Shown: positions 20,340 to 28,299 of the stretch, one piece after another
Layout: every line of letters starts with the position of its first letter
How positions within the stretch are numbered: the stretch's first letter is position 1
Translations under genes and position numbers: made by a program
From: Corallococcus coralloides DSM 2259
GTDB taxonomy: Bacteria > Myxococcota > Myxococcia > Myxococcales > Myxococcaceae
Reading direction: 5' to 3'
Length of the DNA stretch: 64,000 nt
NCBI RefSeq assembly: GCF_000255295.1
Contig: NC_017030.1
Coordinates: 4,774,001-4,838,000 of the forward strand
The notes under the pieces: generated by a model
The model's database searches: none
What the model saw: the letters and a program-made list of their open reading frames with translations, nothing else
Told to the model about the DNA's origin: nothing

Positions 20340-20980
20340 GCACCTCTCCCGAACGCAGCCTCATGGCGGAAGGCCGGAGCGCGGGCCGCGTGCTGCGGCT
20401 GGTGCAGGAGGACGCGGGGCCGGATTCGCCGTACCCGAAGGCGTCGCTGCTCCTGCGGCTGGGCGCGCGCATCATCGACTGCGCGGTGGCCTGGGGCCTG
20501 TACGTGGTCTGCGGCGCCGCGGGCGCGGTGGTGGCGCTGCTGTTCCTGCTGCTCGCGGACGGGATGCTCCAGGGGCAGAGCGTGGGCAAGCGCATCTGCG
20601 GCGTGAAGGTGATGCACCTGCCCACGCGCTCGGCCGCACGGCACCGGGACAGCACGCTTCGCAACGCGCCGCTCGCGCTGGTGGTGCTCTTGGGGATGAT
20701 GCCCGCGCCGCATGGCGTGGTGGCCGCCCTGGCGGGCTTCGTGGTGATGGGCGGCGTGGAGGCGTGGCGCGTGCTGCGCGACCCGCTGGGCCTGCGGCTG
20801 GGGGACACCTGGGCGCAGACGCAGGTGGTGGACGGGAAGGTTGTCGCGGGCGCGACGGTTGCAGCCCGCACGCCGGTGGCCGCCACGCGCGCCCCGGGTC
20901 GTTTGATGTCAGCGGCGAAAGTGCGCCGCGGCAAGGCGTTCAGGAAAGGGAGACGGGGTAAGCCATGCGCATCGCGCTGA
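20336..20980 (+). CDS. RDD family membrane protein
   Basis: About 214 residues from GTG 20336, which overlaps the previous stop (GTGA); ATG 20363 is the alternative. The RDD pattern is clear: LLLRLGARIIDCAVAW in helix 1 (conserved Arg and Asp), then GQSVGKRICGVKV between helices. Three hydrophobic segments follow. The family includes membrane proteins tied to ion or small-molecule transport. The last 16 bp overlap the start of the double ATP-grasp ligase gene. Confidence 0.7.
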   Translation: MSTSPERSLMAEGRSAGRVLRLVQEDAGPDSPYPKASLLLRLGARIIDCAVAWGLYVVCGAAGAVVALLFLLLADGMLQGQSVGKRICGVKVMHLPTRSAARHRDSTLRNAPLALVVLLGMMPAPHGVVAALAGFVVMGGVEAWRVLRDPLGLRLGDTWAQTQVVDGKVVAGATVAARTPVAATRAPGRLMSAAKVRRGKAFRKGRRGKPCASR

Positions 20981-23148
20981 CCTACAACCTGCGGCTTTCG
21001 GACTCGGAAGAAGAGGCGGAGTTCGACACGCAGGAGACGGTGAACACGCTGGCGGGAGCCATCGAGCGGCTGGGCCACCGCCTGGAGCGCTTCGAGGTGA
21101 GCGGCCCCGCGTCGCGCACCGTCGCCCGCCTGGAGGCGTACAGCCCGGACCTCATCTTCAACACGGCGGAGGGGCGCCGCGGCCGCTTCCGCGAGGCCTT
21201 CTACCCGGCGCTCTTCGACGAGCTGGGCTTCGCGTACACGGGCTCGGACGCGTACGCGCTGGCGCTCACGCTGGACAAGCAGCTCACCAAGCTCATCCTC
21301 TCCAAGCACGGCATCCGCACGCCGGGCTGGCAGTACGTGGAGAAGCTCAGCGAGCTGCAGCCGGAGAACCTGCGCTTCCCCGTCATCGTGAAGCCCAACT
21401 TCGAGGGCTCCTCCAAGGGCATCACCCAGGACTCCGTCGCGGAGACGCTGGAGCAGGTGCGCGAGAAGGTGGCGAAGGCGCTGGAGAAGTACCCGGCGGG
21501 CGTGCTGGTCGAGGAGTACATCAGCGGGCGCGACCTCACGGTGCCGTTCCTGGCCGCGGTGGACAACGACTACGACGGCGTGCTCGCGCCGGTGGAGTAC
21601 GTCATCGACCCGGAGGCGTCCCAGGGCCGCAAGTACGCCATCTACGACTACGAGCTGAAGACGCGCCGGGAGAAGTCCGTGTCCGTGCGCGCCCCCGCGA
21701 ACATCCCGGCGAAGATGTCCGAGGACGTCCGCACCATGGCGCAGAAGATCCTCCAGGTGCTGGACTGCCGCGACCTGGGCCGGCTGGACTTCCGCGTGTC
21801 CGACGCGGGCGTTCCGTACTTCCTGGAGATCAACGCGCTGCCCAGCCTGGAGCCGGGCGCGGGTATCTACGCCGCGGCGGAGCTGGAAGGGCTGCACCTG
21901 GACGGGGTCATCAACTCCATCATCCAGAGCGCGGGCAAGCGTCACAAGATCCGCGACAACAAGAGCCGCCAGGGCAGGCCCGCGCGCAAGTCCGGTCCGC
22001 TGCGCGTGGGCTTCAGCTTCAACGTGAAGCGCGTGAAGCCCAGCGCCACGGCGGAGACGGTGCAGGAGGACAGCGAGGCCGAGTACGACTCGCCCAACAC
22101 CCTGCAGGCCATCCGCGAGGCCATCGCCTCCTGGGGCCACGAGGTCATCGACCTGGAGGCCACGGCGGAGCTGCCCACGGTGCTCTCCAGCACGCCGTTG
22201 GACATCGTCTTCAACATCGCGGAGGGCTTCAAGGGCCGCAACCGCGAGAGCCAGGTGCCGGCGATGCTGGAGCTCCTGGACATCCCGTACACGGGCAGCG
22301 ACCCCGCGACGCTGTCGCTCGCGCTGGACAAGGCGCTGGCGAAGAAGATCGTCCGTCAGGCGGGCATCCTCACGCCCAACTTCCAGCTGATGGTCACGGG
22401 CAAGGAGCGCCTCAACAAGGAGTTCACCACCTTCCCGCTCATCGTGAAGCCGGTGGCGGAGGGCAGCTCCAAGGGCGTCGTCACCAAGAGCGTCTGCTAC
22501 TCCGAGGCGGAGCTGCGCGACGTGGTGAAGGAGATCGCCGGCAAGTACCAGCAGCCCGCGCTGATTGAAGAGTACATCGGCGGCCGTGAGTTCACGGTGG
22601 GCCTCCTGGGCGAGCGGCGTCCGCGCGTGCTGCCGCCCATGGAGATCGTCTTCCTGGACAAGGCGGAGAAGAACCCGGTCTACAGCTTCCAGCACAAGCT
22701 CGATTGGACGGACCGCATCCGCTACGACGCGCCCGCGAAGATCGAACCCGCGCTGCTGGAGAAGCTGCGCACGGCGGCGCGCAACTCGTTCATGGCGCTG
22801 GGGTGCCGCGACGTGGCGCGCATCGACTTCCGCATGGACGACAAGGGGCGCATCTACTTCATCGAGTGCAACCCGCTGCCCGGCCTCACTCCCGGCTGGA
22901 GCGACCTGGTGCTGATCGCGGCGGGTGCCGGCATGGACTACCGGACGCTCATTGGCGAGATCATGGCGCCCGCCATCCGCCGCTACAAGGAGCGCGAGGC
23001 ACGCCGGGCCCAGACGGAGAACCCGGCCGGTACGCAAGCGCCGCCGCTCAATAAAGTCGTGCAGCGGATTGAGGAGCAGAACGCGCGGGCCAATGCGTCG
23101 GCCCCCGCGGAGAACACGCCCGCGCCGCGTCCGGAGCTCAAGTCCTGA
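20965..23148 (+). CDS. Fused tandem D-Ala-D-Ala-ligase-like (double ATP-grasp) protein
   Basis: 727 residues, about twice the size of a D-alanine-D-alanine ligase. Two homologous halves (about 1-330 and 345-690) each start with a Rossmann-like part containing an IFN(T/I)AEG motif, then YTGSD and an ATP-grasp core. Half 1: KPNFEGSSKGI, EEYISGRDLTV, FLEINALPSLEPG. Half 2: KPVAEGSSKGV, EEYIGGREFTV, FIECNPLPGLTPG. Both halves keep the glycine-rich loop, the Glu-Glu-Tyr and the Glu-x-Asn metal site, so both may bind ATP. The expected chemistry is amino-acid or peptide ligation through an acyl phosphate; substrates are unknown. It overlaps the RDD gene and ends before a good terminator. Confidence 0.8.
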   Translation: MRIALTYNLRLSDSEEEAEFDTQETVNTLAGAIERLGHRLERFEVSGPASRTVARLEAYSPDLIFNTAEGRRGRFREAFYPALFDELGFAYTGSDAYALALTLDKQLTKLILSKHGIRTPGWQYVEKLSELQPENLRFPVIVKPNFEGSSKGITQDSVAETLEQVREKVAKALEKYPAGVLVEEYISGRDLTVPFLAAVDNDYDGVLAPVEYVIDPEASQGRKYAIYDYELKTRREKSVSVRAPANIPAKMSEDVRTMAQKILQVLDCRDLGRLDFRVSDAGVPYFLEINALPSLEPGAGIYAAAELEGLHLDGVINSIIQSAGKRHKIRDNKSRQGRPARKSGPLRVGFSFNVKRVKPSATAETVQEDSEAEYDSPNTLQAIREAIASWGHEVIDLEATAELPTVLSSTPLDIVFNIAEGFKGRNRESQVPAMLELLDIPYTGSDPATLSLALDKALAKKIVRQAGILTPNFQLMVTGKERLNKEFTTFPLIVKPVAEGSSKGVVTKSVCYSEAELRDVVKEIAGKYQQPALIEEYIGGREFTVGLLGERRPRVLPPMEIVFLDKAEKNPVYSFQHKLDWTDRIRYDAPAKIEPALLEKLRTAARNSFMALGCRDVARIDFRMDDKGRIYFIECNPLPGLTPGWSDLVLIAAGAGMDYRTLIGEIMAPAIRRYKEREARRAQTENPAGTQAPPLNKVVQRIEEQNARANASAPAENTPAPRPELKS

Positions 23149-24570: not shown

Positions 24571-26001
24571 TCATTTCGCGGGCGCGAAGCCGCCGTGGAA
24601 CGTGGGCGGCAGGGCATGGTCGAAGTGGCAGCGCGCCACGGGCCCGTCCTCCAGGTGGCGCGCGTCCAGCACGGCGATGTGGGACGTGTCCGACTTCGCG
24701 TCGAACACCTGGGTGAGCACCCAGCCGTCGTCCTCCGCGCTTCCGCCGGGGCGGGGGACGACGACGGGCTCGGAGGGGTAGGTGCCCTCGCCCAGGGACA
24801 CCTTCGTCATTCGCCCCGTGGCCATGTCCACGCGCGCCACGCCGTCGAAGAGGCCGCGCCGGGCTGCATCGCTGAGGTGCACGCCCAGGTAGAGCGTCTG
24901 GTGCGAGCGGCCCACGACGCCGGGGGCCACGCGGGGGAACTCGCAGCTGATGTCCGCACGCTGCTCGGTGCGGAAGGTGCGTGCCTTCAGGTCCACCACC
25001 GCCCGGTGCAGCATGCCCTTCGCGTCCAGGGACGTGGTGCCTCGCACCAGCTCGCCCAGCCACTGGTTCGTCGTGAAGTCGGGGTAGCGCACGTAGTCCA
25101 CCACCAGCGTGTCGCCCTCTTCGTACGCATTGCCGAAGTGCCACAGGTAGAAGGCCTCCGTGGTGATGCGCACCGGGTGCGCCACGTCGTCGATGGGCAC
25201 CACCAGCACGTCCGTGCCCGCCTCCGGCCGCCACCGCAGGTTCTCCGAGTACGAACCCACCCGCAGGAGCGCGCGGAAGAGGTTCAGGCGCAGCGGTGAC
25301 AGGAAGAAGACGAGGTAGCGGTCCGTGGCGATGAAGTCGTGCACCATGGTCGCGCCGGGCAGCTTCACCGTGCCCAGCCGCTGGGCCTTGCCGCCGTCCG
25401 GCAGCGCGTAGAGGTCCGCCAGCGTCTCGCGGCCGTAGCGGATGCCGAAGTTGTAGGACGCCTTGCGCGACGGCACGCGGTGCGGGTGCGCGGAGAACGT
25501 CTCCACCACCGTGCCGTCGAAGTCCGTCTCGCCCAGCGTGGACAGGTCGTCCTGGGACACCTCCACCGGAATGCTTCCCTCGAAGAGCGCGTACAGCTTG
25601 CCGTTCCACGCCATCACGGACGTGTTCGCGGAGTTCTTGCGCACGTCGCGCAGCTTGTGCAGCAGCGGCGTGGGCGTGCCGTAGGCGCCGTAGCGCTGCG
25701 AGGACGCGTTGCGCTCCGCCACCATGGTGGGCGTGTCCAACAGCCGCGACGCGCCCGTCACCTCGTCCGCGCCGAAGCGCACGCCCAGCATCCCGCCGTC
25801 CCCGTCGAACCAGTGCTGGTACGGCCGACCATGCACGTCGAACGTCCACGGCCCCACCCGGTATAGCGAGCCCCGCAGCCCTTCCGGCACCTGGCCCTCC
25901 ACCCGCAGCGGTTCGAATCCGTGCTGGCGGGGGAGCGTGCGGAACGCCCGCAGCCAGCCCGGCGCGGAGGAGGACATCGTCTGCTTCGTCGCGGTCGTCA
26001 T
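24571..26001 (-). CDS. Carotenoid oxygenase (RPE65/CCD family)
   Basis: 476 residues from ATG 26001, preceded by AAGGGAG. The family cleaves or otherwise oxidises carotenoids (or stilbene-like polyenes) with a non-heme iron held by four histidines. Four candidate ligands are in family positions: SAHPHRV, TMVHDFIAT, LWHFGNAYEE and the C-terminal FHGGFAP. LYRVGPWTF near the N-terminus and FEGSIPVEV are also typical. The open frame continues upstream to 26226, but that stretch crosses the regulatory palindromes and is not coding. Divergent from a TetR gene, which probably represses it through the operators described below. Confidence 0.9.
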   Translation of the reverse strand: MTTATKQTMSSSAPGWLRAFRTLPRQHGFEPLRVEGQVPEGLRGSLYRVGPWTFDVHGRPYQHWFDGDGGMLGVRFGADEVTGASRLLDTPTMVAERNASSQRYGAYGTPTPLLHKLRDVRKNSANTSVMAWNGKLYALFEGSIPVEVSQDDLSTLGETDFDGTVVETFSAHPHRVPSRKASYNFGIRYGRETLADLYALPDGGKAQRLGTVKLPGATMVHDFIATDRYLVFFLSPLRLNLFRALLRVGSYSENLRWRPEAGTDVLVVPIDDVAHPVRITTEAFYLWHFGNAYEEGDTLVVDYVRYPDFTTNQWLGELVRGTTSLDAKGMLHRAVVDLKARTFRTEQRADISCEFPRVAPGVVGRSHQTLYLGVHLSDAARRGLFDGVARVDMATGRMTKVSLGEGTYPSEPVVVPRPGGSAEDDGWVLTQVFDAKSDTSHIAVLDARHLEDGPVARCHFDHALPPTFHGGFAPAK

Positions 26002-26064
26002 GACGGCTCCCTTTCCAGTGCAACGTAGGGCGCGAGAGAACCCCGCGCCGCCCATCGTGTAGAC

Positions 26065-26094
26065 ACTGTAAACATCACATGTTTCCGCTGTCAA
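26065..26094 (-). promoter_or_regulatory. Sigma-70 promoter of the carotenoid oxygenase gene
   Basis: Minus strand: TTGACA (26089-26094) and TACAGT (26065-26070) with an 18-nt spacer, about 65 nt before the ATG. The -35 box lies inside one palindrome and the spacer holds the other, a classic repressible layout. Confidence 0.6.
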
Positions 26095-26107
26095 CATGGA
26101 TGTTGAC
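26070..26107. promoter_or_regulatory. Two palindromic operators, probable TetR-family binding sites
   Basis: Site 1: AAACAT-CAC-ATGTTT, perfect 6-bp arms (26070-26084). Site 2: GTCAACAT-GG-ATGTTGAC, perfect 8-bp arms (26090-26107). The half-sites share the AACAT/ATGTT core and the centres lie about 21-22 bp apart, so two dimers could sit on the same face of the helix. They overlap the oxygenase promoter. Confidence 0.65.
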
Positions 26108-26176
26108 GCTGGCAACTTCGCGCGGCGGATGGTCAAGTCACGCAGGCGACAGTGGGCGCATGAGGAGGCAGGGACG

Positions 26177-26836
26177 TTGGCGACGCGGGGCAAGCGGAAG
26201 CAGGCGGCGGAGGCACCGGAGGACAAGGGCCGCTACCACCACGGAGACCTGCGCCAGGCGCTGGTGGACGCGGCGGTGGCGCTCATCGACGAGGAGGGCT
26301 TCGGCGCGCTGTCCCTGCGGGAGGTGGCCCGGCGGGCGGGCGTCACCCACGCGGCGCCGTACCGGCACTTCGCGGACAAGGAGGCGCTGCTGGAGGCGGT
26401 GGCGCACGAGGGCTTCCGCGCCATGTCGCGCGAGATGCGCGAGCGCATGGCCCCGCACACCAGCCCCCTGGAGCGGCTGTACGCGGCGGGTGAGGCCTAT
26501 GTGCTGTTCGCCGTGCGCCACCGGCCGCACTTCCGGGTGATGTTCGGCCCGCACTTCACCCGGCCCATGTCACCGCCGCCGGAGCCGGAAGGAGAGCAGG
26601 GCGCCTTCACGCTGCTGGTGAGCAGCATCGAGGCCGGACAGGCGGCGGGCCTCCTGCGCCCCGGCGAGTCGCGGCCCCTCACGCTCACCGCGTGGTCGCT
26701 CGTGCACGGGCTCGCTTCGCTGTTCGTGGATCGGCAGCTGGGTGAATCGCCTCAGGGCGCGGAGGCCGCGGAGGCGCTCGCCCGCGTGCAGACGCGGCTG
26801 CTCGTCGAGGGGCTGAGGCCGCCCGCACGCGGCTGA
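26177..26836 (+). CDS. TetR/AcrR family transcriptional regulator
   Basis: 219 residues from TTG 26177, chosen because GAGGAGG (26162-26168) sits 8 nt upstream; ATG 26129 is the alternative, and ATG 26096 lies inside an operator. The N-terminal HTH is clear: QALVDAAVALIDEEGFGALSLREVARRAGVTHAAPYRHFADKEALL in pieces gives helices 1-4, with recognition helix THAAPYRHF. The C-terminal domain resembles the WHG-type TetR C-domain (VRHRPHFRVMFGPHF). It likely represses the divergent carotenoid oxygenase gene and itself in response to a small hydrophobic ligand; this is inferred from position. Confidence 0.82.
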   Translation: MATRGKRKQAAEAPEDKGRYHHGDLRQALVDAAVALIDEEGFGALSLREVARRAGVTHAAPYRHFADKEALLEAVAHEGFRAMSREMRERMAPHTSPLERLYAAGEAYVLFAVRHRPHFRVMFGPHFTRPMSPPPEPEGEQGAFTLLVSSIEAGQAAGLLRPGESRPLTLTAWSLVHGLASLFVDRQLGESPQGAEAAEALARVQTRLLVEGLRPPARG

Positions 26837-26866: not shown

Positions 26867-26894
26867 TTGACCGTCGGAGATTGTCGGGTACGGT
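26867..26894 (+). promoter_or_regulatory. Candidate promoter for a possibly leaderless P1 peptidase mRNA
   Basis: TTGACC (26867-26872), 16-nt spacer, TACGGT (26889-26894). The -10 ends 7 nt before ATG 26902, so transcription would start at or next to the start codon. No Shine-Dalgarno sequence is seen. Confidence 0.35.
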
Positions 26895-26901
26895 CGGCGC
26901 C

Positions 26902-28299
26902 ATGGTGCGGATACCGGAAGAGAATGGGCCAAGGGTCCGGGCGCGGGAGCTGGGGCTTCCGCTGGGGCGCTTCAAGCCGGGGAAGTACAACGCCATCACC
27001 GACGTCGAAGGCGTGCTGGTGGGCCACACCACCATCATCGAAGGCTCGGGGCCGCTGCGGCCCGGCTACGGTCCGGTGCGCACGGGCGTCACGGCCATCC
27101 TGCCCAACCTGGGCAACATCTTCATGGAACGCATGAGCGGAGGCGGCTTCGTGCTCAACGGCGCGGGCGAGGTCTCCGGCATGACGCAGCTCATGGAGTG
27201 GGGCCTCATCGAAACGCCCATCCTCCTCACCAACACCATGGCCGTGGGCGCCGTGTCCGACGGCGTGGCCAACTACCTGGTCCAGCGCTACCCGGGCATC
27301 GGTGACGAGCACGACGTCATCATCCCCGTGGTGGGCGAGTGCGACGACTCGTGGCTCAACGACATCTCCGGCCGCCACGTGCGCCAGGAGCACGTCTTCG
27401 CCGCCATCAACGCCGCGAAGTCCGGCCCGGTGCAGGAGGGCAACGTCGGCGGCGGCACCGGCATGGTGACGTGCGACTTCAAGGGCGGCATCGGCACGTC
27501 GTCCCGCAAGCTGCCGGAGGTGCTGGGCGGCTACACGCTGGGCGTGCTCGTGATGTCCAACTTCGGGAAGATGCACAACCTGCGCGTGGGCGGCCTGCCC
27601 GTGGGCGAAGTGCTGGTGGAGAAGTTCAAGAACACCCCCCACCGCGGCAAGTCCTACGGCTCCATCATCGCGGTGGTCGCCACGGACGCGCCGCTGCTCA
27701 GCCATCAGATCAACCGCCTCTGCAAGCGCGTGGGCCTGGGCATTGGCCGGGTGGGCAGCTACGCGGCGCACGGCTCGGGTGAAATCGTGGTGGGCTTCTC
27801 CACCGCGAACATCATCCCCAGGCGCACCCAGAAGATGGTCTACAAGATGAAGATCCTCCTGGATCAGCGTCTGGACCCCCTCTACGAGGCCGTGATGGAG
27901 GCCACGGAGGAGGCCATCCTCAACGCCATGTGCATGGCGGAGCCCATGACGGGGGTGAACGACAACTACTCGCCCGCGCTGCCCCTGGACGAGGTCCGCC
28001 GCTTCGTGGACGCCTGCCGCCCCATCTTCGCCTCGGTGAAGAAGCGCCCCCACCAGACGAGCGTGCCGGCCTCCAAGGAGCGCCCCAGCGACGAGGACCG
28101 GGAGGGGGACGTGACCCTGGGCGCCGCCCAGCCCACCCGGGTCCGCAGCGCGGAGGGCATTCCCTTCCCGACCCGGCCCGCCCCCAACGAGCCCCCCGCG
28201 GACGGGGAGCCCGGGCCTTCGCCGGAGGCAGCCCGGGCCCCCGACCCGGAGGACCCCGAGGGTTCCTCTTCCGGGAGCCCTAAGGCTTCTGATAGGTAA
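26902..28299 (+). CDS. P1 family peptidase (DmpA/BapA-type aminopeptidase)
   Basis: 465 residues. Ntn-hydrolase that self-cleaves to free a catalytic serine; members act as D-aminopeptidases or beta-peptidyl aminopeptidases. Family landmarks: GKYNAITDVEGVLVGH near the start, NTMAVGAVSDGV, EGNVGGGTGMVTCDFKGGIG, and the probable processing site SYG/SIIAVVATDAPLL where Ser becomes the new N-terminus. The last 75 residues are Pro/Glu-rich and probably disordered, an extension beyond the usual family length. No signal peptide, so cytosolic. It may be transcribed from its own promoter just before the ATG. Confidence 0.85.
   Translation: MVRIPEENGPRVRARELGLPLGRFKPGKYNAITDVEGVLVGHTTIIEGSGPLRPGYGPVRTGVTAILPNLGNIFMERMSGGGFVLNGAGEVSGMTQLMEWGLIETPILLTNTMAVGAVSDGVANYLVQRYPGIGDEHDVIIPVVGECDDSWLNDISGRHVRQEHVFAAINAAKSGPVQEGNVGGGTGMVTCDFKGGIGTSSRKLPEVLGGYTLGVLVMSNFGKMHNLRVGGLPVGEVLVEKFKNTPHRGKSYGSIIAVVATDAPLLSHQINRLCKRVGLGIGRVGSYAAHGSGEIVVGFSTANIIPRRTQKMVYKMKILLDQRLDPLYEAVMEATEEAILNAMCMAEPMTGVNDNYSPALPLDEVRRFVDACRPIFASVKKRPHQTSVPASKERPSDEDREGDVTLGAAQPTRVRSAEGIPFPTRPAPNEPPADGEPGPSPEAARAPDPEDPEGSSSGSPKASDR

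Follow-up and report, generated by a model that had tools for sequence, protein, structure and literature searches.

A putative triple TetR operator across the promoter of a carotenoid cleavage oxygenase gene in Corallococcus coralloides, built from a 19-bp unit that recurs beside related TetR genes

Two perfect palindromes lie across the predicted promoter of a carotenoid cleavage oxygenase gene of Corallococcus coralloides DSM 2259, and the gene divergent from it encodes a TetR-type regulator (PF00440, PF13305), as a preliminary description of this DNA had noticed. The arrangement raises the question of what the regulator would recognize here and what its binding would do to the oxygenase gene. 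The window analyzed is a stretch of 64,000 nucleotides (NC_017030.1, positions 4,774,001 to 4,838,000), whose relevant features are collected in the table. It is very likely that positions 26057-26118 form a triple operator of the divergent TetR, with a dimer or a pair of dimers on each unit, that would shut the oxygenase promoter, probably limit the regulator's own gene and be vacated upon binding of a ligand.

Table. Genes, promoter elements and putative regulatory sites of the oxygenase-TetR locus (window coordinates)
Feature	Position	Strand	Remarks
Carotenoid cleavage oxygenase gene	24571..26001	-	476 aa; Pfam RPE65 PF03055, E 2.6e-118
Putative operator site A, GTGTAGACACTGTAAACAT	26057..26075	+	19 bp; poorest match among the three sites, with 3 mismatches against the 19-mer pattern
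-10 box TACAGT (predicted)	26065..26070	-	inside site A; TAC--T in 18/18 orthologs, positions 4-5 vary
Palindrome 1, AAACAT-CAC-ATGTTT	26070..26084	.	perfect; right arm of site A plus left arm of site B
Putative operator site B, ATGTTTCCGCTGTCAACAT	26079..26097	+	19 bp; contains the -35 box
-35 box TTGACA (predicted)	26089..26094	-	inside site B; TTGACA in 17/18 orthologs, TTGACG in L007
Palindrome 2, GTCAACAT-GG-ATGTTGAC	26090..26107	.	perfect; right arm of site B plus left arm of site C
Putative operator site C, ATGTTGACGCTGGCAACTT	26100..26118	+	19 bp; nearest the TetR gene
AGGAGG ribosome-binding site of the TetR gene	26163..26168	+	8 nt before the TTG at 26177
TetR-family regulator gene	26177..26836	+	219 aa, TTG start; TetR_N PF00440, E 6.2e-16; TetR_C_33 PF13305, E 2.8e-13

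The two genes are separated by an intergenic region of 175 bp (26002-26176). The RPE65 domain covers residues 31-474 of the 476-residue oxygenase (396.5 bits), whose closest solved relative is the Synechocystis apocarotenoid-15,15'-oxygenase (2biw, E 3.1e-65). His172, His221, His288 and His469 all align with histidines of 2biw, and these we take to be the iron-binding positions. The protein scores 185.1 bits against a curated cut-off of 675 for the 8'-apo-carotenoid 13,14-cleaving dioxygenase (NF052295), and so falls below it. Three matches above cut-off to the squalene/phytoene-synthase family (PF00494) are present in this genome, and rhodopsin (PF01036) is matched in none of the genus's 16 genomes and in 2 of the family's 92; a role in breakdown or signalling is on these grounds likelier than retinal formation for a rhodopsin. 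Supply of retinal to a rhodopsin was considered as the role of the enzyme and is disfavoured by the near-absence of PF01036.

The regulator has an N-terminal TetR_N helix-turn-helix (58.4 bits, cut-off 24) and a C-terminal ligand-binding fold, TetR_C_33 (50.8 bits, cut-off 26.8), and its AlphaFold model (pLDDT 89.2) matches TetR structures. The nearest solved structure in the fold search is 3on2 (Z 19.1, 189 residues aligned, rmsd 2.8), nearly tied with 5d1r at Z 19.0, and 3on2 is also the nearest solved relative in the sequence search (E 1.5e-27); it is an uncharacterized TetR-like protein of Rhodococcus RHA1, with a title that gives no function and with no operator seen. QacR- and DarR-like proteins, which share the TetR fold, are both among the structure matches of the model, and one of the titles names dimer-of-dimers DNA binding by DarR. 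Some TetR proteins bind their operator as a pair of dimers, and QacR is one of these.

The promoter of the oxygenase gene is predicted on the minus strand as a sigma-70-like TTGACA (26094-26089), an 18 bp spacer and TACAGT (26070-26065), the sole promoter-like site in 25900-26300 (mean of 0.0 in 50 shuffles). Both palindromes are where the preliminary description had placed them: the first fills the promoter spacer, with its initial base, 26070, belonging to the -10 box as well, and the second covers the -35 box. Letter shuffling of the intergenic region produced two palindromes of this kind (arms of at least 6, gap of 2-3) in 12 of 2000 rounds. AACAT-N2/3-ATGTT occurs in just these two places in the 10,080,619 bases of the genome (0 for the reversed pattern), which the preliminary description had proposed to search for further copies.

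The same letters can be read in another register, as three 19-bp near-palindromes of the form ATGTTGAC-N3-GTCAACAT arranged in tandem with gaps of 3 and 2 bp. AACAT-N2/3-ATGTT, proposed earlier as the binding unit, is the product of two abutting 19-bp sites and disappears when the gap between them is a different one; the claimed number of sites, two, likewise gives way to three (A, B and C). What stands of the original model is that the divergent TetR very probably uses these sites as its operators, and that they are placed so as to block the oxygenase promoter. Elsewhere in the genome only two 19-mers come within 2 mismatches of the pattern; the first is internal to a frame of 980 aa and the second lies 24 bp beyond the end of a frame. 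At up to 3 mismatches the genome as a whole gives 63 matches vs 12 for the reversed pattern. Inspection of the non-local matches with at most 2 mismatches gives no support for a wide regulon in this genome.

Orthologs were sought by a TetR search over 96 family genomes, which gave close orthologs (at least 61% identity) in 31, this locus included. The oxygenase gene is divergent and next door in 24 of these (18 from the genus together with Citreicoccus, the sister genus, and 6 further out), lies 1.4 kb away in 1, and is absent within 5 to 7.5 kb in the remaining 6. Within the near set of 18 (16 from the genus and 2 from the sister genus, this locus counted), the block at ~26058-26118 is near-invariant and the DNA to either side is variable up to the ribosome-binding site. 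Invariant columns per 20 bp number 15, 13 and 13 in 26062-26121, as against 3, 0 and 4 in 26002-26061 and 3 and 0 in 26122-26161, past which the ribosome-binding site is the next conserved stretch (AGGAGG in 15/18). The promoter boxes account for some of the conservation of the block; the spacer between them is 18 bp in all 18.

The cores of both palindromes are found in 18/18 near orthologs and in 0/13 orthologs of the outer family, so that the conservation asked of them extends to the genus and sister genus and stops there. The full palindromes are less constant even among the 18, GTCAACAT-N2-ATGTTGAC being present in 17 and AAACAT-N3-ATGTTT in 3. The 19-bp unit, at 12 or more of 17 consensus letters, is present in 11 of the 13 outer orthologs, and the other two (L023 and L029) have 11/17 letters (shuffle p 0.03 and 0.04). 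L022, L027 and L032, which have no oxygenase gene beside the TetR gene, still have a copy of site C, with 16, 16 and 17 of 19 letters, respectively. The triple form is not general, since L024, L026 and L030 show a single unit on reading; L030 is without an oxygenase gene within 5 kb.

Recurrence of the unit was followed further, beginning from the operator alone. The exact 17-bp core, TGTTGNCNNTGNCAACA, was scanned against 195 genomes of the phylum and matched in 26 of them (6 for the reversed pattern). The match falls at this locus, at site B, in 12/16 genus and 2/2 sister-genus genomes; C. coralloides DSM 2259 is itself missing from the 26 because its site B is one letter off. At the 14 scan loci outside the two genera, a count that leaves out one further match (G194:C96), a TetR homolog of 42-47% identity starts within 80 bp of the site in 6, and the regulator query found none at the other 8. 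Reading of the sequence shows a further unit, at a distance of 3 to 14 bp, in all 6 TetR-linked loci, and AACAT-N2/3-ATGTT occurs in 0/6; one of the 6, L113, is a TetR-oxygenase pair with two units.

Beginning instead from the regulator, a scan of named genomes with TetR alignment gave at least 584 confirmed stretches, of which the best 80 were used. A unit lies within 200 bp upstream of the matched stretch in 73, 66 and 59 of these best 80 of at least 584 (at 12, 13 and 14 or more of 17 letters, respectively), as against 3, 0 and 0 in a downstream control at the same 80 loci and means of 2.7, 0.3 and 0.05 in 20 rounds of dinucleotide shuffles. The tie between unit and TetR is partly built in by selection, because one of the two peptide patterns by which the 80 loci were chosen is the DNA-reading helix itself; what the 80-locus result says is that this DNA-reading helix goes with the 19-bp site. 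Some of the loci are near relatives, so the 80 are not 80 independent cases. Two or more units (at least 12 letters) are present in 49 of the best 80 of at least 584, and 44 of the 49 have them at 21-22, 26-28 or 30-35 bp.

A floating-spacing test, in which ATGTTG-Nx-CAACAT was sought over the upstream 200 bp and up to 2 mismatches were allowed, makes no prior assumption of a 19-bp length. It peaks at x = 7, with 60/80 of the best 80 of at least 584 loci; the next highest count is 28, at x = 1, where the letters of the unit itself are echoed, and x = 10 gives 17. The palindrome arrangement, CAACAT-Nx-ATGTTG, gives 9 at x = 2 and 8 at x = 3 in the same best 80 of at least 584, with its highest value, 18, at x = 8, and thus no peak at 2 or 3. 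The test is weak for 12 outer-family orthologs, in which x = 7 is found in 6/12 vs 4/12 at three other spacings, and the palindrome arrangement (at most 2 mismatches) in 3 at N2 and 1 at N3.

Carriers among the best 80 of at least 584 loci, many of them metagenome bins, span about ten phyla (Cyanobacteriota, Actinomycetota, Acidobacteriota, Pseudomonadota, Chloroflexota, Planctomycetota, Gemmatimonadota, Bacillota, Thermodesulfobacteriota and Myxococcota). Since the unit precedes genes of this TetR subfamily across phyla (the 73/80 above), it is very probably the operator of the regulator at this locus. An oxygenase gene is found in only 4 of the best 80 of at least 584 loci, in flanks of up to 3 kb and with the C. 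coralloides DSM 2259 oxygenase as the query, by which distant oxygenases may be missed; the 19-bp site therefore goes with the TetR and not with carotenoids. Clustering of the neighbouring genes at the best 80 of at least 584 gives no common target gene. Upstream genes of opposite strand at the 80 loci include, by eye, RND efflux parts, an epimerase/reductase and a crotonase-like enzyme. Six loci (L152, L175, L176, L181, L194 and L202) hold mycobacterial members of the TetR subfamily, with sites like ATGTTAATGTCGTCAACAT; all six have on the minus strand an alpha/beta-hydrolase-like gene (by eye), which in L194 lies behind the TetR gene and faces it. At L207 and L218, from gammaproteobacterial MAGs, a TetR gene of the subfamily is divergent from an oxygenase gene and the sites are variants (ATGTTTACA...); these loci perhaps represent a separate joining of the two genes.

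These distributions bear on three other accounts of the block. If the operators were instead the two palindromes, AACAT-N2-ATGTT and AACAT-N3-ATGTT, bound by the same TetR, the perfect symmetry at this locus and the retention of both cores in every near ortholog would be well explained; however, the palindromes are missing from all outer orthologs and from the vicinity of the 6 TetR homologs of the operator scan, they occur in 2 of the best 80 of at least 584 loci, and the spacing test that peaks for the 19-bp arrangement shows no peak at 2 or 3 for theirs, so that we regard this account as very unlikely. No more credit can be given to the proposal that the conservation reflects two back-to-back promoters and little else, with the regulator acting elsewhere or not at all. 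Both promoter boxes are indeed inside the block, and the -10 letters vary as in a promoter (T1, A2, C3 and T6 fixed in 18/18, 4 and 5 variable), but the conserved DNA covers much of the spacer and extends past both boxes, and related TetR genes with other neighbours also have the 19-bp unit beside them; we consider this proposal highly improbable.

Alternatively, the block could serve as an operator for CarA/CarH, the light-regulatory repressors of myxobacterial carotenoid genes. The enzyme is probably carotenoid-acting, TnnACA motifs are present on both strands, and the CarA site is described as having inverted repeats that lie upstream of a -35 and across it (PMC9304148). The CarH operators of the same account are tandem 11-bp TnnACA direct repeats (PMC9304148), but in 26045-26130 the distances between TnnACA starts are 9 and 22 bp for the plus strand and 12, 22 and 9 bp for the minus strand, never 11, and the motif tracks the TetR gene across phyla and not carotenoid genes, leaving this account barely credible. 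CarH-type direct repeats, sought in their own right, were rejected for want of any TnnACA pair 11 bp apart on either strand of that interval.

With the 19-bp unit taken as the operator of the divergent TetR, a mechanism can be proposed, of which binding, repression, autoregulation and ligand release are inferred and the units, their conservation, their tie to the TetR subfamily and their overlap with the predicted promoter are seen in the DNA. Each unit would take one TetR dimer, or a pair of dimers. The units follow one another at 22 and 21 bp, i.e. about two helical turns, because of which the bound proteins would sit on about one face of the DNA. Protein on site A would cover the -10 and protein on site B the -35 of the oxygenase promoter, with site C lying toward the TetR gene; bound TetR would thereby exclude RNA polymerase from the oxygenase promoter, would probably also limit its own gene, and would be released from the operator by a small molecule. 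Most likely the TetR represses the oxygenase gene and itself.

Known systems, too, make repression the likeliest mode of action. In streptomycetes, a gene that is divergent from a TetR gene and under 200 bp away is considered a likely target of repression by that TetR (PMC3511530), and here the distance is 175 bp. In Mycobacterium kansasii the ccoR and cco1 genes (orthologous pair Rv0653c-Rv0654 in M. tuberculosis) are likewise a divergent TetR/AcrR-family gene and carotenoid cleavage oxygenase gene, and disruption of ccoR is reported to raise the oxygenase transcript ~100-fold and to leave cells unpigmented (white), independently of light (PMC9861118). Section 2.4 of that paper names no operator or ligand for CcoR. 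Light control of the oxygenase is not indicated, because the M. kansasii pair is unresponsive to light. The preliminary description had suggested an apocarotenoid or other polyene as the ligand; a polyene ligand for the whole family has no support, in view of the 4/80 loci with an oxygenase (best 80 of at least 584) and the unrelated neighbour genes.

The mycobacterial system is similar in architecture and differs in its parts. A divergent oxygenase-TetR pair was found in 5 of 6 mycobacterial genomes searched; these pairs are counterparts of CcoR-cco1 by architecture only, the comparison being made with the genomes searched. Their TetR is ~31% identical to the one here over residues 25-210 and their oxygenase ~28%, the DNA-reading helix is different, and the conserved intergenic stretch is a different one, in which the 19-bp unit reaches at best 10-11 of 17 letters (five regions). 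The three mycobacterial TetRs placed on the tree form a clade of their own (100/100), separate from the regulator here. A motif for Rv0653c is given in a survey of mycobacterial TetRs, below the survey's own significance cut (PMC4482099).

A second divergent TetR-oxygenase pair, paralogous to this one, is found within the same family at 13 loci of three genera (L071-L083; G002, G003, G005, G006, G007, G031, G032, G033, G059, G062, G075, G077 and G078), chosen for having TetR and oxygenase genes side by side. Its TetR is 35-40% and its oxygenase 42-44% identical to those of the C. coralloides pair, and on reading it has a different palindrome, AAGTAAGT...ACTTACTT, in 13/13. A similar palindrome is present at L084 (G004), where an oxygenase gene was not found within 3.5 kb.

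A tree of 91 TetR proteins, some of them chosen because they have an oxygenase, with an unsettled bootstrap and a poorly resolved backbone, requires 8 label changes for the 20 proteins with an oxygenase, at least 3 of them forced by well-supported branches. With moderate confidence, we picture the regulator as a member of a cross-phylum TetR subfamily that keeps one DNA-reading helix and one 19-bp operator and changes the gene it guards. In this picture the subfamily would supply local repressors of a plug-in kind, whose sites are mostly paired 21-35 bp apart, and would have been joined to oxygenase genes more than once. Since TetRs with other intergenic palindromes have been joined to such genes too, the oxygenases would repeatedly gain a repressor of their own. 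That carotenoid oxygenase genes are paired with several kinds of TetR points to a cost of cleaving carotenoids without control.

Repression of a divergent carotenoid oxygenase gene by a TetR is already published, for M. kansasii (PMC9861118), the one relevant work on carotenoid cleavage or oxygenase together with TetR in listings of the open-licence PMC literature. In that literature, judged mostly from listings, no report was found of the operator, the triple array, the myxobacterial presence or the cross-phylum spread with one reading head. The myxobacterial papers met here concern light-induced carotenoid synthesis; the present analysis offers an exact operator prediction for the control of carotenoid breakdown in these bacteria. 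The prediction extends to many unstudied TetR genes of several phyla, whose target genes, and via screening their ligands, can therefore be sought directly.

Several further features of the locus and its relatives were observed. The gene at 26881-28299, which follows the TetR gene, resembles by eye a P1/DmpA-type aminopeptidase; a homolog is present in 8 of 14 other-genus loci with longer flanks (L091-L104), mostly adjoining the TetR gene, even where there is no oxygenase gene. Further paralogs of the oxygenase (L105-L108) are 55-65% identical to it, and in the 300 bp upstream of them the best matches to the 19-bp unit reach 9, 10, 12 and 10 of 17 letters; these paralogs may be expressed outside this control. 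At 20965-23148 a 727-aa frame appears by eye to contain two similar ATP-grasp (D-Ala-D-Ala-ligase-like) halves in one protein.
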